DNA from: Planctomycetota bacterium | GTDB taxonomy: Bacteria > Planctomycetota > Planctomycetia > Pirellulales > Pirellulaceae | DNA: 14,714 bases | Reading direction: 5' to 3' | NCBI GenBank assembly: GCA_029259935.1 | Contig: JAJDEH010000362.1 | Coordinates: forward strand, 1-14,714 | Shown here: positions 1-14,714 of the stretch, piece by piece | Layout of the letters: each line of letters opens with the position of its first letter | How positions within the stretch are numbered: the stretch's first letter is position 1 | The notes under the pieces: model-generated | Told to the model about the DNA's origin: nothing | The model's database searches: none | The model's input: only the letters and a program-made list of their open reading frames with translations | Program-made: the position numbers and the translations under genes

Positions 1-167
1 AGCCGAAAACCAAGCTGCGATGGAATGCTAGGCTTAAGGACGATCGCCTAAAGACCTCGCTGGGCAACATTCTAAAAGTTCGATCGGCGCGGTAGAATCA
101 AACCTCTCCAACCGACAAAAACCACCGTCTTCACGCCAACAGCATATCTTCGTTGTATCGGCAAACC
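1..167. other. Upstream region of the DUF1549/DUF1501 operon
   Basis: No gene is supported here; open frames on the minus strand are antisense to the real gene. The region should contain the operon promoter, but no clear promoter boxes or Shine-Dalgarno sequence could be picked out. Confidence 0.4.
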
Positions 168-2870: not shown

Positions 2871-2904
2871 GACGGTTGCCATCGAAAACGATGACGAGAA
2901 ACGC

Positions 2905-4278
2905 ATGATGAAAACAACGCGACGACAAATGATCCGATCGTTGGCGGGCGGCGGCTTGCTGTTGCCCGGTTTATTATCGGAGTTGCTCGGTGGCGAGTCG
3001 GCCGGCGTGCATAGGGATAGCGCGCATGTGCCGCGGCCGCATTTTGCTCCCCACGCGAAGCGCGTGATCTTCCTGTTCATGACGGGCGGCGTTTCGCATG
3101 TCGATACTTTCGACCACAAACCGTATCTGACCCAACATCACGACCAGCGCCGAAATAAGAACCAAGTCTACAAAGGGACGGGTTGGAAGTTTCGCCCCCA
3201 TGGCCAGAGCGGCATTGAAGTCAGCGACTTGTTTCCGCGCATAGGAAATGTCATCGACGACATCTGCGTCATCCGCTCGATGAAGAACATTAACGGCGAT
3301 CATTTTGGGGCCACGATCGGCATTCACACCGGGTCGGCCACGTTCAATCGCCCCAGCATCGGTTCGTGGGTTAGTTACGGGCTGGGAACGGTCAATCAAA
3401 ACCTGCCGTCGTTCATGGTCGTTTCACCCGGTCTGCCGTACGCGGGCGGCCAGAACTGGGGTTCCGACTTTTTGCCCGTTCTGCATCAAGGAACGCGGAT
3501 CGTTCCCGGCGACGAGCCGATCGCGAATATGCATCGTCGTTCGCTTTCGCGCGGCTTGCAGCAAACGGAGCTTGACCTGATCGAGTTCTTTAACAAGCAG
3601 CATCTACAAGGCCGCGACACCGATTCCAACCTAACGGCCCGCATCAAGTCGTTTGAAACCGCCGCCGGGATGCAGATGGCAGCTCCCGAGGCATTCGATT
3701 TATCGCGCGAATCCGAGAAAACCCTGAAGCTGTATGGCCTCGAGCGCGGCAGCACCAGCGGATTTGGCTGGCAGTGCCTCGTCGCGCGGCGTCTGGCCGA
3801 GCGGGGTGTGCGGTTCATCGAACTGATCGACGGCGATACCAGCATCGACAAAAACTGGGACGCTCACGCCAACCTCACCAAGTACGACAAACTGGCCCGC
3901 AACGTCGACCAACCGATAGCCGGTTTGCTGCAAGACCTGAAGTCGCGGGGACTCTTGGAAGACACGCTGGTCGTGTGGACAACCGAGTTCGGACGCACGC
4001 CGTGCGTTCCGGCGGCGGGCACCAACGGCCGCGGCCATCATGCCCGCGTCTATTCTTCTTGGCTGGCTGGCGCGGGCATTCGCGGAGGCATGGCCTACGG
4101 CGCAAGCGACGAGATTGGCGATAACGTGGCGGAAAACGTCGTCGACGTTCACGACTTCCAAGCGACGATCTTGCACCAGTTGGGGCTAGACCACGAGCGG
4201 CTCACCTACCGCCACGCCGGCCGCGACTTCCGGCTCACCGACGTCCACGGCCGAGTCATCCACGAGATTCTCTCGTAG
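2905..4278 (+). CDS. DUF1501 family protein (sulfatase/alkaline-phosphatase-like fold), Tat-type signal
   Basis: 457 aa from ATG 2905; ATG 2908 is equally possible. The long upstream extension of the open frame overlaps the previous gene and is not used. The N-terminus MMKTTRRQMIRSLAGGGLLL has a twin-arginine followed by a hydrophobic stretch, which suggests Tat export of a folded protein. Family hallmarks are MTGGVSHVDTFDHKP (about 59-73), a GDHFG segment, TTEFGRTP (about 359-366) and GRGHH (375-379). The first and last of these are where metal ligands lie in the related alkaline-phosphatase superfamily. It follows the DUF1549/1553 gene by 34 nt, the standard planctomycete pairing, and they probably work on the same periplasmic process. 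The stop lies only 17 nt from the first attC site of the cassette array, so this gene marks the array's distal border. Confidence 0.92.
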   Translation: MMKTTRRQMIRSLAGGGLLLPGLLSELLGGESAGVHRDSAHVPRPHFAPHAKRVIFLFMTGGVSHVDTFDHKPYLTQHHDQRRNKNQVYKGTGWKFRPHGQSGIEVSDLFPRIGNVIDDICVIRSMKNINGDHFGATIGIHTGSATFNRPSIGSWVSYGLGTVNQNLPSFMVVSPGLPYAGGQNWGSDFLPVLHQGTRIVPGDEPIANMHRRSLSRGLQQTELDLIEFFNKQHLQGRDTDSNLTARIKSFETAAGMQMAAPEAFDLSRESEKTLKLYGLERGSTSGFGWQCLVARRLAERGVRFIELIDGDTSIDKNWDAHANLTKYDKLARNVDQPIAGLLQDLKSRGLLEDTLVVWTTEFGRTPCVPAAGTNGRGHHARVYSSWLAGAGIRGGMAYGASDEIGDNVAENVVDVHDFQATILHQLGLDHERLTYRHAGRDFRLTDVHGRVIHEILS

Positions 4279-4295
4279 CCGGCCACTGGCGAAAG

Positions 4296-4369
4296 ACCTA
4301 ACGCCGAAGCTCCCCAGGCCCAGCGAACGATCCGATTAGCCCCTCGGCTTCGGTGCAGCATTGTTGTGA
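4296..4369 (-). repeat. attC-like recombination site, distal end of array (cassette of 4382-4765)
   Basis: Read on the minus strand, the site begins with TCACAAC and ends with GTTAGGT, a perfect GTTRRRY R' box. The left arm AATGCT-G-CACCGA-A-GCC has the same base order as the other sites of the array. The right arm GAGCTTCGGC pairs with CACCGAAGC (one mismatch). The arms are less symmetric than in the best sites. It follows the stop of the 4382-4765 gene by about a dozen bases and ends 17 nt from the DUF1501 stop, so it is the array's last site. Confidence 0.7.
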
Positions 4370-4381
4370 TCGGCCGTTTTG

Positions 4382-4765
4382 CTACCAGAAACCAACAACG
4401 AACTTGATGGGCCAAAACCGAGGATTCGGTGGTTCGCGTATCGCGACGAACACGTCGAAATAAGTGTATCCGAAATCGTGGGGACCAGCGTCCGCAACGA
4501 ACGTGTACCGAATCCGGCATTCGCCGCCATCATCATCGGGAGCGGCCAGCACCTCGACGAATGTAGCGGAAAACGTGCCAGCGTGTTTCATGAAATCGTA
4601 CAGCAGTGTTTCGGCCTGTTTCAGTAAAGGCTGGATCGATTCAGCAAGCTCATAAGCGATCTGCAGTCGGGAATCACCGCCGTAGACCTCGTAGTCAAGG
4701 CCGTCTGCGTCCTCGAATCGGACGAAATCAGAATGGCGTTGGAGATTACGAGGTTCAAAATCCAT
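4382..4765 (-). CDS. Hypothetical cassette protein, 127 aa
   Basis: The family is not recognised. ATG 4765 (MDFEPRNLQRHSDFV) is preferred to a TTG six codons upstream; no clear Shine-Dalgarno sequence is visible for either, which is common in planctomycetes. The protein looks soluble, with no signal peptide or membrane segment. A helical middle (about 40-75, AYELAESIQPLLKQAETLLYDFMKH) is followed by a C-terminal half of probable beta strands ending in FWPIKFVVGFW. It is rich in aromatic and acidic residues, a look shared with other small planctomycete cassette and immunity-like proteins, but no function can be assigned. It is the last cassette of the array, followed by an attC-like site at 4296-4369. 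The upstream side carries a short palindromic repeat (4802-4823) instead of an attC. Confidence 0.7.
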   Translation of the reverse strand: MDFEPRNLQRHSDFVRFEDADGLDYEVYGGDSRLQIAYELAESIQPLLKQAETLLYDFMKHAGTFSATFVEVLAAPDDDGGECRIRYTFVADAGPHDFGYTYFDVFVAIREPPNPRFWPIKFVVGFW

Positions 4766-4801
4766 CTGATGTGTGTTGACCAATCAAATCACGAATAAAA
4801 T

Positions 4802-4823
4802 GGGGTCGGGAGCTCGCGACCCC
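4802..4823. repeat. Short REP/MITE-like palindrome (GGGGTCG...CGACCCC), copy 1
   Basis: A 22-base near-perfect palindrome: seven outer pairs (GGGGTCG/CGACCCC), one G-G mismatch, then three inner pairs. Its left 11 bases GGGGTCGGGAG and its right flank CGACCCCTTTCATGCACC also occur in the larger copy at 5346-5462, so the two belong to one family. The flank supplies the TGA stop (4826-4828, minus) of the neighbouring gene. Strong dyad symmetry may also act as a transcription terminator or RNA-stabilising hairpin. Confidence 0.8.
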
Positions 4824-4825
4824 TT

Positions 4826-5302
4826 TCATGCACCCGACTGGACACGGTCTGGGATAGGTATTGGTCTCGTGGTGAGCGACCCTGAAATCACAGAAACCTT
4901 TTTCTCACCAGGTTTGGGTGAGAAATGGAATACAATTTCGGGTGCTCGTTTTATGAAGCCAAAGAGCGGTTCGGGTGATGTCACTGACCCAGTAGTGACC
5001 GTGTGTGACTTCGTCCCATCATCAGTGAACGTAAAAAAATCGACCATTTCCCAGCCATTCCAGATTGGTTCCAAGTCGGGATTCTTAGCGACGAATGTGT
5101 ACGTTACTTCGACCGATCGACCCAAGCGTCGAATTCTCGTGATCGTCAGTCGAAAACTTTCGCATTCAACTGTTGATTGATTGACAAGCGGGGGCATGCG
5201 CCAATTTTCCCTGTCGTAACTTGGGAAACCACAATACCGCAAACAGAAAAGTCCGCAAGCCAACATCCCACAAAGCGTCATTAGCAGTTTGTAACGATTC
5301 AT
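4826..5302 (-). CDS. Membrane-anchored or secreted hypothetical cassette protein, 158 aa
   Basis: The family is not recognised. ATG 5302 opens MNRYKLLMTLCGMLACGLFC, a short basic start followed by one hydrophobic segment (about 5-22). This is a signal peptide or membrane anchor; the MLAC stretch is only a weak lipobox. The rest (about 43-150) is rich in alternating polar and hydrophobic residues (SFRLTITRI, SVEVTYTFVA, EIVFHFSP), suggesting a beta-sandwich exported domain. The last codons and the TGA lie in the flank of the REP-like palindrome at 4802-4823, so the natural C-terminus may have been replaced when the repeat arrived. No attC is visible on either side, unlike most other cassettes here, which fits local degradation of the array. 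Confidence 0.68.
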   Translation of the reverse strand: MNRYKLLMTLCGMLACGLFCLRYCGFPSYDRENWRMPPLVNQSTVECESFRLTITRIRRLGRSVEVTYTFVAKNPDLEPIWNGWEMVDFFTFTDDGTKSHTVTTGSVTSPEPLFGFIKRAPEIVFHFSPKPGEKKVSVISGSLTTRPIPIPDRVQSGA

Positions 5303-5308
5303 GGTTGC

Positions 5309-5629
5309 CTATTTGAGCTGTTCGGGAATGGATGATGTAAAAAAAGGGGTCGGGAGTCTTTTCTTGGTGGGGCGAGGGGGTAGGATGCCAGGACTCGGCT
5401 TACTGCGCGTCCCCATCCGCTTTAGCGCCAGGTGAAAAGACTCCCGACCCCTTTCATGCACCATGAAAATGAATGCTGCGCTTGGATTCGTGGGATTCCG
5501 CAGCTTCTCAGCAGTCGGAACGTAGCTTTTGATGTCGCACCCAGCGAAAACGGCGAGCATCGCGAGCGTCAGCGCGAGGCGACTGCGGTTTGGACCATGT
5601 GCTGTAACACTATGTCGCACCGTGTTCAT
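5309..5629 (-). pseudogene. Lipoprotein cassette gene running into a REP-like insertion
   Basis: ATG 5629 lies just after the GTTATCTGCC end of the attC at 5633-5708, as expected for a cassette gene. The start is MNTVRHSVTAHGPNRSRL followed by ALTLAMLAVFAGC, a good lipoprotein signal with lipobox VFAGC. About 25 further residues (DIKSYVPTAEKLRNPTNP...) look native. From about 5465 the frame enters the REP-like element at 5346-5462 and reads its arms as protein (HERGRESFHLALKRM...), ending at a stop beyond it. The mature part is therefore probably truncated, and the 107-aa product is likely non-functional. The alternative that the repeat-encoded tail is used cannot be excluded. Confidence 0.65.
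5346..5451. repeat. REP/MITE-like element with 17-bp perfect inverted repeats, copy 2
   Basis: The left arm GGGGTCGGGAGTCTTTT (5346-5362) is exactly complementary to the right arm AAAAGACTCCCGACCCC (5435-5451), enclosing 72 bases. The arms and the CTTTCATGCACC flank are shared with the 22-base palindrome at 4802-4823. The element lacks coding capacity and would have to be mobilised in trans, perhaps by a REP-associated (RAYT) or IS200/IS605-like Y1 transposase elsewhere. It interrupts the lipoprotein gene that starts at 5629. Confidence 0.85.
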
Positions 5630-5632
5630 GGC

Positions 5633-5708
5633 AGATAACGCAAAGTTCACGCGGCGGGCGCGCGACTTTGATTTCAGAACCGACGTTGCCGCCCGCTCGC
5701 GTGCAACG
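5633..5708 (-). repeat. attC site body identical to the one at 11351-11426; first box missing
   Basis: Bases 5629-5708 are identical over 80 nt to 11347-11426 in the same orientation. On the minus strand the site ends with GTTATCT. Its arms pair as GTT-[G]-CACGCG-[A]-GCGGGCG against CGCCCGCCGCGTGAAC, with two extra bases six apart. The loop holds TGAAATCAAAGTC. The first box (GCATAAC in the other copy) is absent: identity stops at CGTT, where a different hairpin site (5701-5757) begins. It directly precedes the lipoprotein gene at 5629. Confidence 0.8.
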
Positions 5709-5757
5709 AATTGCGATCTATCCGGCTGCTTTGAGACGGATAGATCGTGCGTTGAAC
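5701..5757 (-). repeat. Short attC-like hairpin site fused to the neighbouring attC
   Basis: On the minus strand the site reads GTTCAAC (perfect RYYYAAC) and ends GTTGCAC. Between them is an 11-bp perfect stem CGATCTATCCG/CGGATAGATCG with a 12-base loop and no extra bases. A 43-base part (5705-5747) recurs in inverted orientation at 10848-10890 with one mismatch. Its final box overlaps the arm of the adjoining attC (5633-5708), making a hybrid double site. Confidence 0.65.
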
Positions 5758-5834
5758 TTTGCCGCTTCGTGGCCCGCGGCTATGCGGATTCAAAGAGGCC
5801 ACAAAGCGTGCTGAGGCCATCTTAACGAATGGCG
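5758..5834. other. Remnant between the hybrid attC and the IS91-type element
   Basis: No convincing gene. A 48-codon minus-strand frame from ATG 5820 exists but runs through both hairpin sites, so it is not called. The 12 bases AACGAATGGCGA (5824-5835) also occur at the edge of the hairpin site near 10840, suggesting that this is the surviving half of another short site at the transposon border. The border itself cannot be fixed by eye. Confidence 0.4.
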
Positions 5835-5992
5835 AAGGTGATTCGCAAATCGACGTAGCCTGATGTCGGGCGGGAAACAGTGTGTTGTCGTGGTGAGAAG
5901 GAAGATTTTGGAGAGTTGGTGCATACGGCCTTCCAGCTCTCGATTCCAGAGTGGTCCGATCGGTCGGGTTGAAGTCGCGTGATTCATGAGCG

Positions 5993-7300
5993 TCATCCGT
6001 CTCGTGGGCGAAAGGGGTGGTACCAACTCGGGCGAGCCTCGCTGGTCATCACGTCCCACCAACTCGGACGACTCGTCTCCAGGAGGCAGGTCAGCGGTTG
6101 GCCACATGTGGGGCAACAGACCGTGGAAGTGTCGGATGGTTCGTCGTCCGTTTCAGGCTTGTTGGCGGAAGCGTCGTCGGAGCAAGTGCTCACGCCTAGC
6201 AGTTCGCGACAACGTTTGCCGTACGACTCGGCCTGCCGGTTGCTGTAGCCGCCGTAGTAGCGGACCTTCGTAAAACCCTTCGGCAAGATATGCAGTGACC
6301 AGCGCCGGACGAACTCGAGGCCGTCGAGGGTGAAGGGAGCTTGTCCCGCGCGACGTCCAGCGGCCGGTTTGTCGAGGCGGCGAGCGAGGAAGGTGACTTG
6401 GCCTTGCTCGCGCGAGAGTAAGCGGCGATCCGAAATCGGACCGCCCGTCAGGTAACGCGCCAAGTACTTCAAGACCTGTTCCGGCGACGTCTTCCTGCGT
6501 GGCGGGCCTTGGATGAAGACGCACCAGTCGCACAACGCCAGTTTGCTCAACAAGTCCTCCAGCTTCGGGCTGCCGTCATGCGAAGCATGTTCGCTGGGCC
6601 AGTGCAACGCGCCGTTGTCACGCAGCTTCTTCAAGCCCGCTAGGAACAAATCGCGAAAGCGCGTGCTGAGAAGCCGGTTGTCGACCAAGTACGGCTTGCG
6701 TCGCCGACGATGTTTCGGATGACGGCTTTCAATCCAACCCTCATCCGAGAGTGACGGGCCTCCGCCGGGAACCAAGGCATGGACATGTGGATGGTGCTCC
6801 AGCCGTTGGTTTCACGTGTGCAGCACCATCAACGCGGCGGGCTGGAAGCCGCATTGCTGTTGCACCACGTCCCGCAGCGCCCGCCAAGCCGAACGGAACA
6901 ACAAGTTGTAAAGCTCGCGGCGATGGCCCAACACCAGCGAGGATAACTTGTCGGGCAACGTGAACACGACTTGAAAGTAGTTCACCTCCGGCAGCAACAG
7001 CGTGCTCATTCGCTCCAGCCACTCGGCTCGCCGGGCGCCGCGACATTGCGGACAATGCCGATCCCCGCACGAGTTGTAAACGACGCATTGCCCCGCGCAC
7101 GACTCACATCGCAGCAGCCTGCCTCCCAAGGCCGCCGTACGGCACAGCGACAACTTGGCGAGGGTGCTCTGCACTTGCGGCACGGCTTGGCGGGGATATT
7201 GCTTGACGAAGCCGGGCACGTACTGCCGCAACAAGTTGGCGACGGTCAGTTGCCCGGGCCGGCTCCGCCCGTTTCCGGCGGTTCCTGCCAACGAGGGCAT
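5993..7300 (-). pseudogene. IS91-family (HUH, Y2) transposase, interrupted by an in-frame TGA
   Basis: One frame runs from ATG 7300 (MPSLAGTAGNGRSRPGQL) to the stop at 5993, about 435 codons, a normal IS91 length. It is broken only by a TGA at 6812-6814 (codon 163). The expected sequence is LHTW-NQRLEHHPHVHALVPGGG, and the intact relative at 13615 has LHTWG here, so the change is most simply TGG to TGA. Domains: N-terminal zinc ribbon (Cys 65, 68, 78, 83, 86; CGDRHCPQC), HUH motif H172-V-H174, and the catalytic tyrosine pair KYLARY (Y279, Y283). A CCPTCG motif lies near the C-terminus. The enzyme would nick and transfer single strands at the element's end in rolling-circle transposition; without readthrough it lacks HUH and both tyrosines. 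It overlaps the recombinase gene by 55 nt. Confidence 0.88.
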
Positions 7301-8160
7301 TGACGCACCGGCAGCCAATCGATCGGGCTGGGCGTCGAGTGCAAGTGCGGCCGGCGAACGTGTAGATAAATCATCGTGCTCATGAAACTGGAATGGCCCA
7401 GCAATTGTCCGATCGTCAGCAAGTCGACGCCCGCTTCCAAAAGTCCCGTCGCGAAACTGTGACGCAAGGTATGGGGCGTGACGGCCGGCGAAAGTTTCGC
7501 CTCGCGGGCCGCGGCTTTGCAGGCTTTCTGAATGGTCGTCGAACTGAGCGGTGCCTGGCCGTCTTTGCCGGCGAATAAATACGCCGCGGGCCGATACTTG
7601 CGCCAGTAACTCCGCAGGGCCTCCAGCAGCCGCGGCGACATCGGCACCAGCCGTTGCTTGGCCCCTTTGCCGTGCAGCACGCGCAACTGCATCCGCGACG
7701 AATCGATGTCGCCGACTTTCAAATGCGTTGCTTCGCTGAGCCGCAGCCCGGCCGCGTAAAGCGTCAAGAGAACCGTTCGATGTTTGAGATTCGTGGCACA
7801 TTCAATGAACCGTGTTGCTTGCTCGTGCCCCAAGACCAGCGGCAGCTTCTTGGGCCGCTTGCCGAAAGGAATCATCGCCACATGCCAATCGCGGGGGATC
7901 GTGAATCGATACAGAAAGCGTAGCCCGCAAACCGCTTGGTTGAAGCTGCTCCAGCCGACTTTTCGGTCCTGGATCAGATAGAGCTGATACTCGCGGATCT
8001 GTTCCGGACCCAGCTCTTCGGCAGCCCGCTGGAAGTGCTGTTCAAACTTCGCGACGTGATACGTGTAGGAATCGATGGTCCGTGGCGAGAGATTGCGAAT
8101 TTGCATGTCCTCGGCCATGCGCTGGCCAAGCGGAGTCGGGCGGTTACGAAACGGCGTCAT
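7246..8160 (-). CDS. Tyrosine recombinase of IS91-type composite element 1
   Basis: 304 aa from ATG 8160 (MTPFRNRPTPLGQRMAEDMQ); an upstream non-ATG extension is not used. An N-terminal SAM-like DNA-binding domain (about 12-95) is followed by a catalytic domain with the complete set R140 (GLRLSE), K165 (HGKGAKQR), H230 and R233 (TPHTLRHSFATG), H256 (LGHSS) and Y265 (MIYLHV). All active-site residues are present, so it may still be active. It lacks the extra helix/insert (with its GxxWPWFWVF-type motif) that marks integron integrases between the second and third catalytic boxes, so it is not IntI. Its 3' end overlaps the transposase start. It probably resolves or assists insertion of this IS91 derivative; a direct role at attC is untested. 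Confidence 0.9.
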   Translation of the reverse strand: MTPFRNRPTPLGQRMAEDMQIRNLSPRTIDSYTYHVAKFEQHFQRAAEELGPEQIREYQLYLIQDRKVGWSSFNQAVCGLRFLYRFTIPRDWHVAMIPFGKRPKKLPLVLGHEQATRFIECATNLKHRTVLLTLYAAGLRLSEATHLKVGDIDSSRMQLRVLHGKGAKQRLVPMSPRLLEALRSYWRKYRPAAYLFAGKDGQAPLSSTTIQKACKAAAREAKLSPAVTPHTLRHSFATGLLEAGVDLLTIGQLLGHSSFMSTMIYLHVRRPHLHSTPSPIDWLPVRQCPRWQEPPETGGAGPGN

Positions 8161-8339
8161 CCAAAAACCCTTTGCTGAGCGAGAAGAACACAGGGCGTCA
8201 CCGAACAAACGCGACGCCTACAACTCAGCATCATTGCCCGCCGAAAAAGCGCAAGTCTCTTTTATCGAAACGTTCCGCACAATCAGAACAGCTCAGAGTG
8301 AGCTAAGACAGCCTGAACAACCACCCGCGAAGCGGCTTA
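8161..8339 (-). other. Leader region of element 1 upstream of the recombinase
   Basis: About 180 bases with no gene. It contains the palindrome AGCTCA-GAG-TGAGCT (8290-8304) and runs up to the R' box of the attC at 8340-8429. It should hold the recombinase promoter, but no convincing -35/-10 pair or Shine-Dalgarno sequence could be singled out. Confidence 0.4.
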
Positions 8340-8429
8340 GTTCAACGTCTGCCGTAACCGGGCACGAACGGAAGACTTTGATTTCATTTGCCGCGTAAAA
8401 GAGTGCTCCGGTTCACGGCTTTGTTCAAG
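8340..8429 (-). repeat. attC site of the 8437-9120 cassette
   Basis: On the minus strand it starts CTTGAAC and ends GTTGAAC, which fits GTTRRRY exactly. The arms pair as GCCGT-[G]-AACCGG-[A]-GCAC against GTGC-CCGGTT-ACGGC: 15 pairs interrupted by two extra bases exactly six apart, all in the first arm, as in classical attC sites. The loop holds TGAAATCAAAGTC. Symmetry continues beyond the boxes (AGCGGCTTA / TAAGCCGCT). The gene's TAG stop lies 8 nt before the first box. Confidence 0.88.
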
Positions 8430-8436
8430 TAAGCCG

Positions 8437-9120
8437 CTATTCGGCCGTGCAAACCTCGGCGATATCCCAATTGCGAAGTGTGACAAAGTAGGCGCGGAAC
8501 TCCGGATCGCCTTCAACCTTGTACGATATCTCGATTGTGTTTGAATCATCATAGATGTTGATGCCGACATGCCGAATCAACCGTGCAGAAAGCTCGTCTG
8601 ACGTTTCGATTTCGGGGTGGCACTTGGCAAGAGCCGAACAGATGTCCGGCCATAGTCGAACGTGACGTTCCCGAAGTTCATTAATTAGGTCACGGTGGTG
8701 TTTGGACGGCCCGGATTCATCGGCCTGAAGATGAAGATGTGCTGATTCGATCGGCGTAGAGTCAAACGCGATGTCGGCATCCCACGAGTCAGTGTAGTAA
8801 TCCATTTGGCCGAAATCGGGATCGTCGATCGTTTTTTTGGGACTACCGGTCATGCCGTGGGGATCGTCGTACTCGCCAACAGGGAGAATGCGAATTGTGA
8901 TTTCATCGCCAGTTGTAACTTCGGGCGACGGCCACGCCGCATGATGTTGTCGATCTTTTGAACCATCAAACATTCCAAGGCCACCGATGTGGAGATCGTG
9001 GGTCAGTTCTTGCCCCGGATGTTTGACGTAGGTGAGCCCGACAGAAAGCACACCATCGCCGTTGATCCCAGAGATGCAGACAGGTTCCCCGTTCTTCAGG
9101 ATTTCGAATCGCGTTGACAT
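8437..9120 (-). CDS. Hypothetical cassette protein, 227 aa
   Basis: The family is not recognised. ATG 9120 (MSTRFEILKNGEPVCISGING) is preferred over a TTG six codons upstream. No signal peptide; a soluble acidic protein. The first half looks like beta structure (VCISGINGDGVLSVGLTYV, GDEITIRILPVGEYDDP). A helical stretch (about 140-170, HHRDLINELRERHVRLWPDICSAL) follows, then a C-terminal strand-rich tail (TIEISYKVEG...RAYFVTLRNW). It is the largest cassette gene in the array. It is bounded by a candidate site at 9145-9205 upstream and a strong attC at 8340-8429 downstream, with its TAG stop in the sequence ATAGCGGCTTAC that also precedes the attC at 12507-12596. Promoter unseen; cassette genes often depend on a distant integron promoter. 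Confidence 0.78.
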   Translation of the reverse strand: MSTRFEILKNGEPVCISGINGDGVLSVGLTYVKHPGQELTHDLHIGGLGMFDGSKDRQHHAAWPSPEVTTGDEITIRILPVGEYDDPHGMTGSPKKTIDDPDFGQMDYYTDSWDADIAFDSTPIESAHLHLQADESGPSKHHRDLINELRERHVRLWPDICSALAKCHPEIETSDELSARLIRHVGINIYDDSNTIEISYKVEGDPEFRAYFVTLRNWDIAEVCTAE

Positions 9121-9144
9121 ATCAATGAATGGTTTCAATTAGCG

Positions 9145-9205
9145 CCATAACGTTTAGCGTTCTATCGTCTCGTAACGCAGCCATGAGCGTTGAAACATGT
9201 TGAAC
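9145..9205 (-). repeat. Candidate attC site of the leucine-rich cassette
   Basis: On the minus strand it begins GTTCAAC and ends GTTATGG. The arms align as GTTT-[C]-A.CG.TC against GAACGCTAAAC with mismatches, so pairing is imperfect. The final box lies about 25 nt before the start of the next cassette gene, where a cassette junction is expected. An inner GCGTT/AACGC stem is also present. Weaker than the sites at 8340, 11351 and 12507. Confidence 0.5.
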
Positions 9206-9438
9206 TGAGCCGCGTCGCTGTTGGTGGCTGACTATTTGGGAATTGTAGCGATCCGCTAGGACGGGCGAAAGTTTGCCGGCCGCCGACAGGGGGCTTCGAG
9301 ACCGTCAACTGGCGACAGAAATTGCACCCTTACCCGGTAATGGCAAGCTGTCACCTGCGTGCTTGACGAGACTCGCGACGGTCACCTGGAATCATCTTAC
9401 TACTGTCTCCCGGGGCGCTGAACCGGATTATTCAGTGA
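9206..9438. other. Non-coding stretch of the leucine-rich cassette
   Basis: About 230 bases with no supported gene. A small TAGCG-GAT-CGCTA hairpin (9246-9258) is visible. This is long for the space between a cassette gene and its attC, which suggests that the gene once extended further or that a second open frame has decayed here. Confidence 0.4.
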
Positions 9439-9675
9439 CTACTCCGTTTCAATTTCACAACTTGGCAATGCAGCTCTTAGCTCTTGTAGTTGCGAGCTAG
9501 AAAGAGCAGTTCTTCGTACATCCAGGTATTGAAGTTTCGTTAGCGAGTGCAGTGGTTTCAAGGAGTCGATCTCGCAATCACACAAGTGCACTTCGGTGAT
9601 GCCGGGGTCACCCTTGGCGGGAAACAGTGACGTTGTTTCGCATCGAAAGAAGATGGTGTCACCGTGGTCTTCCAC
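9439..9675 (-). pseudogene. Leucine-rich-repeat-like cassette gene, probably broken at its 5' end
   Basis: The 78-codon frame starts with GTG directly after an in-frame TGA (9676-9678). It encodes VEDHGDTIFF...ITEVHLCDCEIDSLKPL and LTKLQYLDVRRTALSSSQL, two short leucine-rich repeats, ending LPSCEIETE. Upstream of the TGA the same frame stays open for about 35 codons and reads DRHCVLAIVLSVLTASSHRA, which resembles the hydrophobic core of a signal peptide. The simplest reading is an exported leucine-rich protein of a type common in planctomycetes, interrupted by a nonsense mutation or small indel. No ATG start is visible for the full version, so a short 78-aa protein starting at GTG remains possible. 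Confidence 0.5.
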
Positions 9676-9862
9676 TCACTGCATAGCGGATCGCTGCCGC
9701 ACGGCTCGGTGTGAAGAAGCCGTCAAAACCGACAAAACGATGGCAAGGACGCAATGGCGATCAGAAATCCTCGCAAGCCAAATTGACGATTCCAGCGAAG
9801 CCTTTAGCGCGTTACTCCTGCCTATCTGACTTTACCTGAATAGCATGACCGTCACCGACCGC

Positions 9863-9939
9863 GGCGAACGACATTGATCTCAATTGCCTTAGGCGTGTCC
9901 GCTCGAAGACCCGTGAAGTCAAAGCCTGACTCGTTATGC
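9863..9939 (-). repeat. Candidate attC site of the HAD-like phosphatase cassette
   Basis: On the minus strand it begins GCATAAC, identical to the first box of the strong site at 11351-11438, and ends GTTCGCC. GGC..AACGA pairs with TCGTT.GCC at the ends; inner pairing is poor. Its place about 30 nt after the phosphatase stop and its 77-nt length fit a decayed attC. Confidence 0.42.
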
Positions 9940-9968
9940 CGTCAGCCGTGTGTTCCCAGAGATTGCAG

Positions 9969-10343
9969 TCACTTTGCGTTGAGTTGGGTGCTGATCCATT
10001 CCCGGATTACTTCGTCGCATGGCATGAATACGAGTATCGAAGCGTCGACTAACGTGACGACTTCTGGCATGTCTTCGAAGAAGATATCGGGTCGCAACCG
10101 GTTGACCAAGTTTGCCTTCCATTCATGCAGCGATTGGGTCGCGGCTTTTCCGTGATCCGGATCTGTCGAAACGAGGACTTGGTCATATCGAACGCCGACG
10201 GAGTCTAGATATTCCTCCGTTTGCGCCTTGTTGGCCCTGAACGTGACAATCGTGATCCGCGCATCAGCGAATCTATCGCACAGTCCAGCAAAGAACTTTG
10301 GAGCGTAAGTGATTGTGTCATCAACGTCGAGGCAGATGTGCAT
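9969..10343 (-). CDS. HAD-superfamily phosphatase-like cassette protein, 124 aa
   Basis: ATG 10343 opens MHICLDVDDTITYAPKFF. The DVDDT box gives the expected nucleophile D6 and acid/base D8 of HAD hydrolases. IVTFRAN (T34) fits motif II, WKANLV (K77) may be motif III, and FFEDMPE (E90, D91) fits motif IV with its acidic magnesium ligands. All four motifs occur in order in a minimal, cap-less protein, so a small soluble phosphatase acting on a nucleotide, sugar phosphate or nucleic-acid end is plausible; the substrate cannot be told. No signal peptide. The gene sits as one cassette, with a decayed site upstream (about 10363-10391) and a candidate attC downstream (9863-9939). It is the only cassette protein here with a recognisable enzyme fold. 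Confidence 0.82.
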   Translation of the reverse strand: MHICLDVDDTITYAPKFFAGLCDRFADARITIVTFRANKAQTEEYLDSVGVRYDQVLVSTDPDHGKAATQSLHEWKANLVNRLRPDIFFEDMPEVVTLVDASILVFMPCDEVIREWISTQLNAK

Positions 10344-10362
10344 TGCGTGGCATTCTACGGAG

Positions 10363-10418
10363 GCGGGATAATGAATTGCGATTACGAATTGTCTATATCA
10401 AGCAGCCTGATCCGCCAT
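10363..10418 (-). repeat. Degenerate short site after the 10393-10818 gene
   Basis: On the minus strand ATCGCAATTCATTATC...CGCC resembles the end of the short hairpin class (ATCGCAATTCGTTATCTGCC at 10881-10897, plus strand). GGCTGCTT just before it matches that class's loop. G of the expected GTT is A here and arm pairing is weak. Probably a decayed relative lying across the 3' end of the gene. Confidence 0.3.
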
Positions 10419-10818
10419 GCAAGGTGAAAGGGGCCGACGAATCCAGCGAAGTCAAATGCCAACTCTCGTAGCCGTCAGTCGACGCAACCGTGAGTGTCAT
10501 CGCGTTTGATAAATCGAGCCGTATTGCGCCATCCTCTTGAGCAATCGCGTTGACGATGGTGCAACCAATCAATTCCAAGAGTGGTTGAAGTGTCTGTGGC
10601 GCGAATGTCGTGCCGGGCTTCGCTCCTTTGAGTGTTTGCGTCGAGTTGCCACGTGACAAGATTAGCGAATCTTCTATTGCGAGCGTTGTTTCATTGTCAG
10701 CCTTGCTGCGGAAAATCAACGTCACGAGGCGATCAATCGCAATTCGGACTTCGGCAACCGTGTCCCCGATGATCGGAAGCTCTACGTGCCGACCGCGTTT
10801 CTTGAGAGGCTTTGTCAT
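10393..10818 (-). CDS. Hypothetical cassette protein, 141 aa (possibly DUF6188-like)
   Basis: ATG 10818 opens MTKPLKKRGRHVELPIIGDTV. A soluble protein with no signal peptide. It has repeated short strand-like blocks (VTLIFRSKADNETTLAIEDSLILSRG) and ends in GYESWHLTSLDSSAPFTLHGG. The YESWHL...G tail recalls small bacterial DUF6188-type proteins, which often sit beside toxins or in cassettes, but this is a weak resemblance from memory and no function follows. The last residues GGSGCLI and the TAG stop fall in sequence resembling the short hairpin class, so the C-terminus may have been reshaped by cassette junction changes. It follows the site at 10835-10894 by 17 nt. Confidence 0.75.
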   Translation of the reverse strand: MTKPLKKRGRHVELPIIGDTVAEVRIAIDRLVTLIFRSKADNETTLAIEDSLILSRGNSTQTLKGAKPGTTFAPQTLQPLLELIGCTIVNAIAQEDGAIRLDLSNAMTLTVASTDGYESWHLTSLDSSAPFTLHGGSGCLI

Positions 10819-10834
10819 TTGGTGAGTTGCAACA

Positions 10835-10894
10835 TAAAAACGAATGGCGATCTATCCGTCTCAAAGCAGCCGGAAAGATCGCAATTCGTTATCT
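10835..10894 (-). repeat. Short attC-like hairpin site of the lipoprotein cassette
   Basis: On the minus strand it begins AGATAAC, which contains the TAA stop of the preceding gene, and ends GTTTTTA, a poor R' box. The arms pair as AACGAAT, GCGATCT and TCCG against CGGA, AGATCGC and ATTCGTT, with single mismatches between blocks and a 12-base loop. No extra bases protrude. Bases 10848-10890 match 5705-5747 in inverted orientation with one mismatch. Confidence 0.65.
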
Positions 10895-11344
10895 GCCATT
10901 TTCGTGAGGGAACGGATCCGTCGGTAAGTCGCAGATGTGTAGAATACTAATTTCACGATTGTGATGCAGGTCCCATTCGCGCCATGAATACTGGACCTTG
11001 ACTTTGCCATCCTTGGGCATTTCTTCCTCAGCTACTTTGATGATCGCGTAACCATTTGCAGCGTCGAGATCGTAGATGTCACTGACCCACCGTCGACGCA
11101 CGGAACTTAAATTGAAGTTCGATCGCGTGATCACTTTTTTGTCTTCATTATCACTCGAACGCCAGACGAGCGAATGAAACTCGTACGCTCTTACGCGAAG
11201 CTCGGGCACCGGGACTTCGATCTGGAACAAGATCAACTGCTCGCCGTTGCTGGATAAGGCTTTCGCAGATTCGCGAAGCTGTGGTGGTTGATCCATAGTG
11301 CAGCCAAGAGCGAGCAACCCGAGGACTAGAATCTGAGGCTTCAC
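10889..11344 (-). CDS. Lipoprotein-like cassette protein, 151 aa
   Basis: GTG 11344 is chosen although the frame is open further upstream. It lies six bases after the final box of the attC at 11351-11438 and opens directly on a lipoprotein signal, KPQILVLGLLALGC (lipobox ALGC, Cys about 15). The longer frame would read through the attC. The mature part has no recognised family. It contains strand-like blocks (GEQLILFQIEVPVPELRVRAYEF, GYAIIKVAEEEMPKDGKVKVQYSW) and may be an exported beta-sandwich, as in the 4826-5302 protein. The TAA stop lies inside the first box (AGATAAC) of the next site, a typical tight cassette arrangement. Confidence 0.75.
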   Translation of the reverse strand: MKPQILVLGLLALGCTMDQPPQLRESAKALSSNGEQLILFQIEVPVPELRVRAYEFHSLVWRSSDNEDKKVITRSNFNLSSVRRRWVSDIYDLDAANGYAIIKVAEEEMPKDGKVKVQYSWREWDLHHNREISILHICDLPTDPFPHENGR

Positions 11345-11350
11345 GTTGGC

Positions 11351-11438
11351 AGATAACGCAAAGTTCACGCGGCGGGCGCGCGACTTTGATTTCAGAACCG
11401 ACGTTGCCGCCCGCTCGCGTGCAACGTTCTTGTTATGC
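11351..11438 (-). repeat. attC site of the 11433-11855 cassette (reference copy)
   Basis: The clearest site of the window. On the minus strand it runs from GCATAAC to GTTATCT. The arms pair GTT-[G]-CACGCG-[A]-GCGGGCG against CGCCCGC-CGCGTG-AAC: 16 pairs with two extra bases six apart in the first arm, the same spacing as in the classical aadA1 attC. The loop holds TGAAATCAAAGTC. The TAA stop of the upstream gene lies in the first box. Bases 11347-11426 are repeated exactly at 5629-5708. Confidence 0.9.
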
Positions 11439-11855
11439 GACATTTCTACGGCGGATCCAGAACGTCGTTGCACCGTTAAAGATACAGCGACCAAGTTCGT
11501 GGGTCTGAGTGTCTATGAGTTCATTCAGCCAACTGGGAACATCAGCCCCCCATTCGACTCCTTCGAAAGCGTATGGATAGTTATCGCGGTTTGGGTTTGG
11601 TGTGTGCAGGTAAACGGCGTCTTGACTTGAATCATTTTCGTCGATCACGATCCACTGCTGTACTGGCTTCGTCCAATTCGCTGTGTGTGCTTCGACATCG
11701 TGCAGGAAATGTAAGAGCCGCTGAATTAACGGTCGTCGCTCTGCGATTCCACGGTTTCCGTCACCATTCCAATCGATGTGACTGTGCCAAAGGTCGCACC
11801 ATCCATCTTCATCCGGGATGCGGACGGTTTCGGGGTTTGGTTGGGAGTCATTCAC
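11433..11855 (-). CDS. Hypothetical cassette protein, 140 aa
   Basis: The family is not recognised. GTG 11855 (MNDSQPNPETVRIPDEDGW) is the first usable start; the nearby ATG at 11851 is in another frame. The protein is soluble and rich in tryptophan and acidic residues (CDLWHSHIDWNGDGNRG, QWIVIDENDSSQDAVYL, FEGVEWGADVPSWL). It has a helical stretch at about 43-56 and a basic C-terminus FWIRRRNVA. Such compact acidic, aromatic proteins are frequent among integron cassettes and immunity-type proteins, but no role can be named. The TAA stop lies in the GCATAAC box of its attC. Upstream, a site with a decayed final box (11870-11958) ends 14 nt before the start. Confidence 0.72.
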   Translation of the reverse strand: MNDSQPNPETVRIPDEDGWCDLWHSHIDWNGDGNRGIAERRPLIQRLLHFLHDVEAHTANWTKPVQQWIVIDENDSSQDAVYLHTPNPNRDNYPYAFEGVEWGADVPSWLNELIDTQTHELGRCIFNGATTFWIRRRNVA

Positions 11856-11869
11856 GAAGCATCTAGTTG

Positions 11870-11958
11870 CATCACAGTCAGGCTAACCGAGTCGGCGGAG
11901 AAGACTAACCATTCAAAACGCACGTTGTTCGCCGCTTCGGCTCACGGTTTTGTTCGCT
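11870..11958 (-). repeat. attC-like site of the 11966-12484 cassette, final box decayed
   Basis: On the minus strand it begins AGCGAAC, then AAAACCGT-G-AGCCGA-A-GCGGCG, matching the base order of the strong sites. The second arm CGCCGACTCGGTT pairs over AGCCGA and CGGCG with mismatches. At the expected 89-nt distance the final box reads TGTGATG instead of GTTRRRY. A GTTAGCC at 11881-11887 could serve instead but would unbalance the arms. The gene's TGA stop lies seven bases before the first box. Confidence 0.6.
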
Positions 11959-11965
11959 GGGCCAG

Positions 11966-12484
11966 TCAGCAATAGCCGATCAATGGTCCAACAACTCGGT
12001 CACAGAATAGATTGTACAGCCTATATGCTTCGGTGCGTTGCCACGACGGTGGATCATGCGAATTCCACAATTCTTGATAGTTACGATCATAGGTTTGCCT
12101 GTCGCAGGAGAGAACGGTATTTTGCTCCGAAATCGTGTTGTGTGAAAGTTGCTGATGGAAATCGGGCCAAGCGACTGCGAATTGACGATTAAGGATGTAT
12201 TGAATGACTCCGCGCAATACGAGTGATTTATCGATTTCCAATTGCAAACATGCGTTCTTGAACAGCCGGCACCGGCGAAGTTGGCGGTCAAGGTCACTTA
12301 GCGGTTTGCATGGCTTCAACCCAATCAAGGCAGCAACATCGTCGATCAGCAGATATCGGTCCTCTGGGTTAAGTCCTTCCAGCAAATCGAGAAAGCGCTC
12401 CAACGAAACGGATTCATGCGAGAGATCTGCGAATGGAAAAACCGCATGAACGGGATGAATGAAGGTGACGTTTTGGCGGTCCAA
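11966..12484 (-). CDS. Hypothetical cassette protein, 172 aa
   Basis: The family is not recognised. TTG 12484 (MDRQNVTFIHPVHAVFPFADL) is the only start near the attC end; no in-frame ATG exists and an in-frame TGA lies just upstream. No signal peptide. The sequence looks mostly helical and soluble, for example ESVSLERFLDLLEGLNPEDRYLLIDDVAALIG (about 24-55) and DLDRQLRRCRLFKNACLQLEID. Cysteines and tryptophans cluster toward the C-terminus, which ends GPLIGYC. The length and isolation between two attC-type sites (12507-12596 and 11870-11958) mark it as one cassette. The lack of a strong start signal fits expression from an upstream array promoter. Confidence 0.7.
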   Translation of the reverse strand: MDRQNVTFIHPVHAVFPFADLSHESVSLERFLDLLEGLNPEDRYLLIDDVAALIGLKPCKPLSDLDRQLRRCRLFKNACLQLEIDKSLVLRGVIQYILNRQFAVAWPDFHQQLSHNTISEQNTVLSCDRQTYDRNYQELWNSHDPPSWQRTEAYRLYNLFCDRVVGPLIGYC

Positions 12485-12506
12485 CTCAATTCCTCACACT
12501 GTCCAT

Positions 12507-12596
12507 TGCGAACGTCTAAAATCACCGAGTTGCCGCCAGCGACGTTGACTTCAGATTCGGCCCGGGCGGCAGCTCCGGTGCATTTTTTTGTTCAAG
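12507..12596 (-). repeat. attC site of a cassette whose gene was lost
   Basis: On the minus strand it begins CTTGAAC and ends GTTCGCA. The first arm AAAAAT-[G]-CACCGG-[A]-GCTGCCGCC pairs with GGCGGCAACTCGGTG-ATTTT (one G-A and one C-T mismatch), again with the extra bases about six apart. The loop TGAAGTCAACGTC is close to the TGAAATCAAAGTC of other sites. The 20 bases 12588-12607 are identical to 8421-8440, which there hold the end of a cassette gene. Here the gene is missing and element 2 begins. Confidence 0.82.
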
Positions 12597-12672
12597 TAAG
12601 CCGCTATCGCGGCGGGTTAGATTGAGTGTACTCGATTTCTCGGGCATGGGGCAATTTTGTCGGGAATGCTTT

Positions 12673-12706
12673 CCTTGTTGATCTTTCTTCTTCTCTCTCA
12701 ACAAGG
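12673..12706 (+). promoter_or_regulatory. Hairpin that overlaps the recombinase ribosome-binding site
   Basis: CCTTGTTGA (12673-12681) is exactly complementary to TCAACAAGG (12698-12706), with a 16-base pyrimidine-rich loop. The second arm contains the AAGG of the Shine-Dalgarno AAGGAG (12703-12708), nine bases before the ATG at 12718. In the folded mRNA the ribosome-binding site would be partly hidden, which could keep recombinase synthesis low. Confidence 0.65.
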
Positions 12707-12717
12707 AGACGCCTCAC

Positions 12718-13611
12718 ATGGCCAAGCCTACCTCTTCTTTCTTCGTCGATCCGCTCTACTCACGCATGGCCGAGGATCTGCATTTGGGCGGGATGAGTCA
12801 GCGGACTCATGATGGCTATTTGCGGGCGGTGCGGCAGTTGGCGGACTACTGTCAAACCTGGCCCGAGAAGATCACGGAGGGGCAACTCCGGCGATACTTC
12901 CTCTATCTCAAAAACGAAAAGCAGTTCGCTTATGGGTCACTCCGCGTCGCCTTTTCCGGCATCAAGTTCTTCTACACGCGGACCTGCAAACGGGCTTGGG
13001 ATACGCTCGCTCAGATGAAGCTGCAGAACGTGAAGAGCCTGCCGGAAGTGATCACGATTCCCCAGGTCCACCAGATCATCGACGCGACCACCAGCCAGCG
13101 GATCGCCGGCTACTTTTGGACCGTCTACTCGCTCGGGCTGCGCATGCAAGAGGGACTCAACCTGCAAGTTGGCGACATCGATGCGGCACGCGGCTTGGTG
13201 CATGTCCATCGCGGCAAGGGAGCTAAAGACCGCTACGTGCCGTTGCCCACCTCGACCCTTCGTCTACTGCGCGAGTATTGGGTCACGCACCGCCACAAGC
13301 GTCTCTTGTTCCCCGCCGAGGGTCGCAGCCACACGGGGAACTCCACGGCCGCAACTCCGATGAGTCCCACCGCGGTCCAGAGAGCGATGAAGAAGATCAC
13401 CCGCCAACTTGACTTTGGCAAGAAGGTCTCGATCCACACGCTGAGGCATTCCTACGCGACTCACTTGCTCGAAGCGGGCGTCTCTTTGCGAGCGATCCAA
13501 CAGTACCTGGGACACAGTTCGCTGCAAACGACCCTGGTCTACTTGCACCTGACCGACACGGCGGACGTCCAGGCACGTGAAGTGATCGAGCGAATCTTCA
13601 AGCGCGGATAA
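12718..13611 (+). CDS. Tyrosine recombinase of IS91-type composite element 2
   Basis: 297 aa from ATG 12718, with AAGGAG nine bases upstream. An N-terminal SAM-like domain (about 12-95; MAEDLHLGGMSQRTHDGYLRAV resembles its partner in element 1) is followed by a catalytic domain with R142 (GLRMQEG), K167 (RGKGAKDR), H240 and R243 (SIHTLRHSYATHLLEAG), H266 (LGHSS) and Y275 (LVYLHL). The set is complete, so the enzyme may be active. Like the recombinase at 7246-8160 it lacks the integron-integrase insert, so it is not IntI. The transposase gene begins 3 nt after its stop, so the two are translated together. Expression is probably damped by the hairpin over the ribosome-binding site. Confidence 0.92.
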   Translation: MAKPTSSFFVDPLYSRMAEDLHLGGMSQRTHDGYLRAVRQLADYCQTWPEKITEGQLRRYFLYLKNEKQFAYGSLRVAFSGIKFFYTRTCKRAWDTLAQMKLQNVKSLPEVITIPQVHQIIDATTSQRIAGYFWTVYSLGLRMQEGLNLQVGDIDAARGLVHVHRGKGAKDRYVPLPTSTLRLLREYWVTHRHKRLLFPAEGRSHTGNSTAATPMSPTAVQRAMKKITRQLDFGKKVSIHTLRHSYATHLLEAGVSLRAIQQYLGHSSLQTTLVYLHLTDTADVQAREVIERIFKRG

Positions 13612-13614
13612 GCC

Positions 13615-14370
13615 ATGCCCACCGTTGCGGACTGCCTGCGGCAGCACGCACCGGCCTACTTGGCGAAGTTTGGCCCTCGCGTTCCGATCGGTCATCGTAA
13701 GGTGATCGACGCCATTACGCGTTGCCGGACCGGAGAACTCGGCGGAGTCGTCTACCAGTGCGATGACTGTCAGCGGAGTCACTGGGTCGGTCGCTCGTGT
13801 GGCAATCGTCATTGCCCTGGCTGTGGCAAGGAGAAGACCGGCGCTTGGCTCGCCAAACAACAAGATCGCCTGATGCCGGTGCATCACTTTCTGGTCACCT
13901 TCACGGTTCCGGACCAGATCCGCTCGCTGCTGCGCGGCCATCCCCGGGGTGGCTACCGGGCGTTGTTCGCCGCCGCCGCCGAATCAATCCGTGACGTGGG
14001 TTCGGCGACCAAAAACTTGCGTGGTTGCCGGTTGGGATTCTTCGGCGTGCTGCATACTTGGGGTCGCGACCCCATGGTCTATCATCCTCACGTTCACTTC
14101 GTCGTTCCCGGCGGTGGAGTGCGCGAGGATCGATCGGCTTGGCAAGCGACCCCCAAGAACTTCCTGGTGCCCCACGCCGCCCTGACCCGCGTCTACAAGG
14201 CGAAGCTTGCCGATCACTTGCGCACGTGTGGCTTGTACAATTTGGTTCCTCCCACGGCCTGGAAGGGGAAGTTCGTCGTCGACATCAAGCCGGTCGGCGA
14301 CGGCCGCGCGGTGCTGAAGTATCTTGCTCCTTATGTGAACCGCGTGGCAATCAGCGATAACCGTGTGTAG
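13615..14370 (+). pseudogene. IS91-family (HUH, Y2) transposase, C-terminus removed by an IS21-type insertion
   Basis: ATG 13615 opens MPTVADCLRQHAPAYLAKFG. Visible parts are a zinc ribbon (C49, C52, C62, C67, C70; CGNRHCPGC), the HUH motif H159-V-H161 in LHTWGRDPMVYHPHVHFVVPGGG, and the catalytic tyrosines Y236 and Y240 in KYLAPYVNRVAISDNR. At residue 250 the frame meets the IS21 tip, whose TGTAG supplies a TAG stop. About 100-150 C-terminal residues normal for the family are missing. All catalytic residues remain, so partial activity is conceivable, but the element also lacks its transposase-side end and cannot move as a unit. Confidence 0.9.
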
Positions 14371-14469
14371 CGACAATTAGTTTTCCCGGTCAGCGACCAT
14401 TAGAAGCCCTGGGTTGACGGGAATTGCTAGCTTTGTTTGCGGGGCGATTCTTCCGCCAGCGACAATTAG
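14368..14469 (+). repeat. Three 13-base terminal repeats of the IS21-type element
   Basis: TAGCGACAATTAG (14368), CAGCGACCATTAG (14391) and CAGCGACAATTAG (14457) are direct repeats differing at one or two positions. They are spaced 23 and 66 bases apart. Repeats of this kind in IS21-family ends are transposase-binding sites. Confidence 0.85.
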
Positions 14470-14529
14470 AATTCCCGCCCAACGATGTTTCCTTCAACAT
14501 CGCATCTCCCGATTCTCATGGAGGTTGCG

Positions 14530-14714
14530 ATGATCACCGATGGACAAGTCAAGGAACTGCGGCGAATGCTTGCGCAAGGCAAGCCACTGGCCGCTTCGGC
14601 AAGGATGACACTCATGGATGAGAAGACTGCACGCAGCTATCGTGACGATGATCGTCTGCCCTCCCAGCGAAAAAGGCCTCGCGATTATCGAACTCGCGCC
14701 GACCCGTTCGCGGA
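14530..14714 (+). CDS. istA: IS21-family transposase IstA, N-terminal part (runs off the window)
   Basis: 61 codons visible: MITDGQVKELRRMLAQGKPL, then AASARMTLMDEKTARSYRDD and DRLPSQRKRPRDYRTRADPF. This is the characteristic IstA start, a helix-turn-helix for end binding followed by the KTARxYRDDDRLPSQRK linker. The DDE catalytic core lies beyond the edge. ATG 14530 is chosen; an in-frame ATG at 14518 is possible, but GGAGG (14520-14524) lies five bases before 14530 and favours the latter. Family assignment is firm from this N-terminus. Confidence 0.9.
   Translation, partial: MITDGQVKELRRMLAQGKPLAASARMTLMDEKTARSYRDDDRLPSQRKRPRDYRTRADPFA

Follow-up and report, generated by a model that had tools for sequence, protein, structure and literature searches.

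A decaying planctomycete integron cassette array in which one cassette is probably an integrase-bearing IS91 transposon

We analysed a stretch of 14,714 nucleotides (the window; contig JAJDEH010000362.1 of the Planctomycetota assembly GCA_029259935.1, positions 1 to 14,714) in which an earlier inspection of the letters alone, here called the sequence-only reading, had recognized an integron cassette array without an integrase. The array is a real but decaying integron cassette array, and we consider it probable, at roughly 0.7, that one of its cassettes is an integrase-bearing IS91 transposon with cassette-compatible ends, from a lineage that has settled in integrons. This cassette, element 1, is a single 2.6-kb unit between the attC site at 8340 and a hairpin at 5701 (sites are named by their first position; Table 1), and encodes a tyrosine recombinase and an IS91-family transposase. 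Since its ends look like the recombination sites of the array, they suggest that the cassette form may be a way for some transposons to reside in integrons and to travel.

The attC sites were evaluated with a covariance model, R1, trained on 32 sites from ten loci of other planctomycete genomes, the window being excluded and each locus chosen for an integron integrase (IntI) match over cut-off. The training sites had been selected through our own arm scan (score at least 12.8, length 84-102), and 32 of 45 candidates were kept, leaving out L168:8189 (a near-copy of the 8340 site), L168:16000 (of unclear orientation) and 11 others that were long, divergent or similar to kept ones. The structure of R1 consists of R boxes, spacers, L arms and two extrahelical bases, with pairing in 90.9% of cells and both-side changes at 20 of the 25 pairs, a level that 500 shuffles and six slid versions all failed to reach. 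Scored with filters off, the window gave four strong and two weak matches, all on the minus strand, the next match having an E value of 0.94. These sites fit the covarying structure, with the order R''-L''-L'-R' and extrahelical bases, and provide the two or more closely spaced attC sites that mark a cluster of attC sites lacking an integron integrase (CALIN). The inverted repeats that the sequence-only reading had named at 8340, 11351 and 12507 were confirmed to the base, all three being significant in the covariance search on which it had staked its case, and R1 covariation together with the window matches supports its view of a cassette array. The arm scan ranked 11351, 12507, 10835, 8340 and 5701 highest (score at least 13.9), against 0.03 such matches per window in 60 dinucleotide shuffles, and its best match outside the array was 11.8 at 2484, within coding sequence. 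Plain folding of ten stretches (z from -7.5 to +1.4) did not separate the attC sites, and for this reason the covariance model was used. A search of the window against Rfam returned no attC family and a single chance match, a tRNA scan of it found none, megablast of the array against plasmids gave no match, and PADLOC on ten open reading frames (ORFs) of the window found nothing.

Relatives of these sites were sought in 196 genomes, all from the order to which a Pirellulaceae metagenome-assembled genome (MAG) belongs, with at most four candidates scored per genome. The 11351 site had relatives in 11 genomes and the 8340 site in 19 (E 1e-3 or better, up to 95% identity), of which 12 carry an IntI over cut-off, versus 48 of the 196 overall; in three genomes (G133, G087 and G152) a site lies 3-9 kb from an IntI. 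Given that the attC reading is right and that the 8340 site has this distribution, the array is of CALIN type, or else the distal portion of a chromosomal integron continuing to the right.

The first bases of an integron cassette are complementary to the R'' box at the opposite end, a pairing that holds for element 1 (23 nt, 87%) and for the cassettes at 10889-11347, whose ends GTTATCTGCC and GGCAGATAAC are complementary at 10 of 10 positions, and 11966-12484, whose start GTTCGC pairs with its end GCGAAC. Element 1 begins with G|TTGAAC, which fits the integron core GTTRRRY, and the GTTCAAC at its other end fits RYYYAAC. It has the structural marks of a gene cassette, namely an attC at the 3' end, an R'' box complementary to the cassette start and limits at G|TT, and its relatives have the short attC in the same place. 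The sequence itself shows that both ends fit core boxes, that the 3' end is a short hairpin attC and that relatives in other genomes stand in the same place behind attC sites. The crossover lies between the first two bases of GTTRRRY (PMC8876359), and the R'' consensus is printed as RYYYACC in PMC7923331 (papers are cited here from excerpts of their text). The attC at 11351 has a second copy, and element 1 apparently entered this copy at an inner GTTGCAC, the R'' side of the copy being lost; 80 nt of the attC region at 5633-5719 are identical to 11347-11426. With an interrupted transposase, the element 1 of the window would today need others for its movement.

The absence of an integrase claimed by the sequence-only reading stands insofar as no scanned window protein passes the IntI cut-off, and has to be qualified because two IntI/XerC-like tyrosine recombinases are present, the first within the array and the second at its right edge. 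With TIGR02249 (cut-off 265 bits) the recombinases of element 1 and of a second element to its right, element 2, scored 180.2 and 146.8 bits, both lack the IntI-specific 31-residue segment, and in the tree both fall outside the clade formed by the five IntI rows. By sequence, the element 1 recombinase is nearest to XerC-like, IntI4 and XerA PDB chains. The element 2 transposase is of the IS91-type HUH class by NF033538 (Table 1).

Recombinase relatives were found in 10 of the 196 order genomes (E 1e-40), in 13 of 392 phylum genomes (E 1e-50) and in 408 plasmid records (E 1e-30). We scored 33 copies, from the window and from loci fetched around most order and phylum relatives. The 5' motif TTGAACTWARNCG (up to two mismatches) was present in 27 of them, with no mismatch in 18, one in seven and two in two, and was preceded by G in 21, A in five and C in one. 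Eight of these 27, from five genomes, immediately follow an R1 attC that is oriented as they are (window element 1, L201, L203, L204, L216, L239, L240 and L241), the matches of L239 and L241, one duplicated place, being partial (E 0.0039); the layout of the window recurs in G180, G196, G205 and G510, and L201 has an IntI no more than about 1.5 kb away. Another two, window element 2 and L217, are placed at the R'' box of an attC but point the other way. Behind the transposase, 17 copies carry the 3' motif AGTTCAAC (up to one mismatch, 13 exact) followed by a hairpin whose arms differ among seven genomes, yet pair. Folded as DNA, four of these hairpins stand out (z -3.1 to -4.3) and that of G383 does not (-0.1); the stretch folded for L210 cut the hairpin. 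At L210 the next cassette starts at the CG|TT of the hairpin and has matching ends of its own, GTTCGGCGA with TCGCCGAAC. The element 1 clade of the tree comprises six recombinase rows (support 100/98), five of them array copies, and its genomes contain 14, 15, 27 and 41 R1 sites (150 first-look candidates scored per genome); because G205 counts zero although its attC is visible in the locus scan, zeros in such counts are no proof of absence. A test of the array label on the tree gave three changes versus a shuffled mean of 5.9 (as low in 6 of 500), to which we give little weight because 16 of the 33 rows were left out and a near-copy pair was included. From these observations we infer that the element 1 lineage has specialised on integrons. 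The plasmid integrase-IS91 elements of Aromatoleum (ISAzo26), Bradyrhizobium and Herpetosiphon have recognisably similar ends, that of Sphingomonas only partly, for which reason such ends look old in the group, the lineage around element 1 using them in integrons. In G510, copies L239 and L241 have nearby a second integrase-IS91 element, of the element 2 kind and in opposite orientation.

Genome G383, with no IntI match and no R1 match at E 1e-4 among 150 first-look candidates, has four near-identical copies whose common sequence runs between G|TTGAAC and CTCTTGG|TT, which defines the ends. For two of them the flanks are attagctgttagcc repeats, from which it is probable that only one GTT was present in the empty site. 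Such junctions would be explained by a G|TT crossover, and also if an IS91-type transposase inserts the element just 5' of GTT. If element 1 moves as a cassette, its circular form would carry one attC (GTTCAAC-hairpin-G|TTGAAC) and would enter arrays and chance sites by G|TT strand exchange, like any gene cassette. IntI would serve this circle in integron hosts, the element's own recombinase and/or its transposase elsewhere; attC recombination works on single-stranded DNA, which the transposase may provide. IntI, the recombinase and the transposase are all candidates for the enzyme that moves element 1. At L242, L243 and L212 the flanks are alike, with CCTATTTA before and TTATG after the element, and differ from the G|TT sites, perhaps representing a dif-like target.

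Several observations weigh against the interpretation of element 1 as an integron-settled cassette or of its surroundings as attC sites. Seventeen of the 27 copies have no R1 attC at the 5' end (five loci were searched with filters off), and L207 and L210 have none even with filters off. Copies in G070, G034 and G442 depart from G|TT, for which we have no explanation. IntI occurs in only two of the 11 genomes with the 11351 site, and single-strand folding at 8340, 11351 and 12507 is unexceptional (z -2.1, -1.0 and -1.1 at the three sites). R1 misses the short hairpins at 5701 and 10835, which are without the usual extrahelical bases. Finally, ISAzo26 has similar ends outside integrons, so the hairpin may simply be an oriIS.

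We tentatively extend the proposal to self-moving cassettes, a step about which we are doubtful: the element's own tyrosine recombinase would act on the folded attC-like end at G|TT, spread the element without IntI and perhaps shuffle CALIN cassettes. Unlikely, in our view, is that the 3' hairpin is an oriIS and nothing else, the HUH transposase inserting 5' of GTT, with attC R' boxes merely good targets, the resemblance to a cassette a by-product and neither IntI nor the recombinase needed. The ends of IS91 elements are indeed hairpins, their insertion leaves the target unduplicated and they work through single strands; insertion 5' of GTT yields the same junctions as a G|TT crossover; and copies occur in genomes without an IntI match, with similar ends in plasmid IS91 elements. 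Yet both ends of element 1 fit integron boxes and pair together like cassette ends, and eight copies are oriented like cassettes and stand exactly behind attC sites. The strict targets of IS91 are GTTC/CTTG, and such targets are not required here, the right flanks beginning with GTTA, GTTG, GTTT or GTTC. Very improbable is an ordinary insertion sequence (IS) that landed in a CALIN by chance among attC sites of other cassettes: CALINs do collect insertion sequences and the element 1 transposase is broken, but this is largely contradicted by the same layout in four other genomes and by copies that have the 3' hairpin of the element although they lie well away from integrons. The notion that the repeats are terminators or repetitive extragenic palindrome (REP)-type sequences can be put aside with hardly any reservation, for although the short hairpins (5701 and 10835) form almost perfect stems, GGGGTCGGGAG palindromes occur in the array and the main sites fold unexceptionally, it is contradicted by the AAC/GTT boxes, the strong covariation, the four strong R1 matches on one strand and the close matches in IntI-linked arrays.

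Table 1. Features of the window, in order of position
Feature	Position	Strand	Evidence or remark
Neighbouring operon, two large ORFs (second DUF1501-type, so named in the sequence-only reading)	153-4278	+	ORFs
Weak attC, left array end	4296-4369	-	R1 20 bits, E 0.0019
ORF, 133 aa, no family	4382-4783	-	ORF; Pfam none
ORF, 158 aa, no family	4826-5302	-	ORF; Pfam none
Small ORF directly behind attC, running into palindromic repeat	5309-5626	-	ORF
attC, second copy of 11351 site, R'' side replaced by element 1 end	5633-5719	-	R1 46.1 bits, E 2.4e-10
Putative short attC, 3' end of element 1, R'' GTTCAAC	5701-5757	-	Arm scan 13.9; DNA fold z -4.3
Element 1, probable cassette with recombinase and IS91-family transposase	5707-8345	-	Ends G|TTGAACTAAGCCGCT and AGTTCAAC-hairpin-CG|TT
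IS91-family transposase, in-frame stop near 6812	5993-7246	-	NF033538 in two pieces, 140.8 and 116.7 bits
Tyrosine recombinase, 320 aa, open ORF, catalytic residues kept	7246-8208	-	PF00589 E 2.6e-36
attC	8340-8429	-	R1 54.2 bits, E 1.8e-12; R' box is first bases of element 1
Cassette gene, 233 aa, no family	8437-9138	-	ORF; stop adjoins attC 8340-8429
ORF, 124 aa, HAD-type phosphatase look (our reading), no Pfam match	9969-10343	-	ORF
Cassette gene, DUF6188	10393-10818	-	PF19686 E 2.8e-13
Short attC-like hairpin, R'' AGATAAC, R' GTTTTTA	10835-10894	-	Arm scan 14.1; DNA fold z -7.5
Cassette gene, about 152 aa, lipoprotein-like start (our reading)	10889-11347	-	ORF
attC	11351-11438	-	R1 52.5 bits, E 5.1e-12
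Cassette gene, 140 aa, no family	11433-11855	-	ORF; Pfam, PADLOC none
Weak, degenerate attC	11869-11957	-	R1 17.2 bits, E 0.01
Cassette gene, 172 aa, no family	11966-12484	-	ORF; Pfam, PADLOC none
attC	12507-12596	-	R1 56.4 bits, E 4.6e-13
Element 2, recombinase and IS91-family transposase	12591-14370	+	Starts at R'' box of attC 12507-12596, opposite orientation
Element 2 recombinase	12718-13611	+	TIGR02249 146.8 bits
Element 2 transposase, 3'-truncated	13615-14370	+	NF033538 263.5 bits (cut-off 125), positions 1-254 of 356

The remaining features refine the picture of about ten small, mostly unrelated genes, mostly separated by inverted repeats, that the sequence-only reading had drawn. The genes at 5993-8208 and 12718-14370 turned out to be pairs of IS91-family transposase and tyrosine recombinase instead of small cassette genes, and five gaps (4784-4825, 5303-5340, 9139-9438, 9676-9968 and 10344-10392) contain no attC by R1 or arm scan. 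Palindromic GGGGTCGGGAG repeats occur at two of these five gaps; REP-like in appearance, they lie inside or between cassettes at 4788-4834 and 5332-5462, with 21-nt arms, 100% complementary, at 5343-5363 and 5434-5454. Pairing of cassette start and end fails across 4296-5633, which looks rearranged and contains GGGGTCGGGAG palindromes. The gene at 10889-11347 has its stop codon inside the next attC-like site, and a leucine-rich-repeat fragment at 9439-9675 (PF12799, below cut-off), in an attC-free stretch, is perhaps a decayed cassette. An inverted cassette had been considered for the two hairpins, 5701 and 10835, an idea replaced by that of a short attC type to which L168:6313-6378 pointed, a site within an IntI-linked array that, by our own reading, the neighbouring cassette ends fit. 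Together with 5701-5757 and 10835-10894 it looks like a short, nearly bulge-free attC type missed by R1, which attC searches may undercount.

Element 2 starts with TTCAAGTAAGCCGCT. Its interpretation as a cassette with reversed genes was dropped, as the flanking attC differs from that of L217. Its transposase ends early at 14370, beside a pair of 28-nt direct repeats (82%) at 14369-14485; an ORF at 14485-14712, which starts next to the element end and has no NCBIfam match, runs off the window, and this looks like an IS21-type insertion. At the other side, the distance of 17 nt between the DUF1501 stop (4278) and the last attC was as described in the sequence-only reading, the attC itself being only weak. 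The operon ORFs have relatives with up to 80% identity in planctomycete and other MAGs. None of the 20 DUF1501 loci of relatives searched with R1 at E 0.01 (80 were fetched, and some reach only a few kb downstream) gave a match, and therefore the array is not a fixed neighbour of the operon.

For the questions of where cassettes and attC sites come from, and of how CALINs change when no integrase is present, a transposon lineage with cassette-format ends, a recombinase of its own and copies within integrons as well as elsewhere offers a link that is concrete and testable. One consequence is that surveys based on attC may mistake transposons for cassettes; another is that cassettes could be multiplied by copying of the IS91 type. 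Should the self-moving proposal be true, a single recombination system would serve both integron cassettes and integrase-bearing IS91 transposons, and attC sites could arise from such transposons. Within the open-licence PMC texts searched, we recognised no account of integrase-IS91 elements with attC-type ends as a group, or of a transposon lineage with cassette-format ends.

CALINs and sedentary chromosomal integrons (PMC9024848) and planctomycete attC models (PMC8352920) are known. The window resembles a CALIN in its several attC sites, its unrelated genes in one orientation and the lack of an IntI in the window, and differs in that one cassette encodes a transposase together with a recombinase. 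An isolated precedent is ISShvi3 in a Shewanella integron (PMC9229058), a single instance. ISCR28 in sul4 modules (PMC12772301) is likewise IS91-like with an attC at its end, and is thought to be passively shuffled; unlike element 1, no integrase partner is mentioned for it in the excerpt. ISAzo26 and other IS91-family elements beside a tyrosine recombinase gene share the gene pair and similar ends, but no integron array was seen around them, though R1 was not run there. The GIsul2 integrase moves the insertion sequence common region (ISCR) unit CR2-sul2 by site-specific recombination (PMC9376610), which likewise amounts to a recombinase moving an ISCR unit, but it does so at att core sites in a genomic island, with no attC involved in the account excerpted. 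Lastly, group IIC-attC introns enter attC sites at the R'' side and point against the cassette genes, just as element 2 lies, although they are retroelements and not DNA transposons (PMC7923331).

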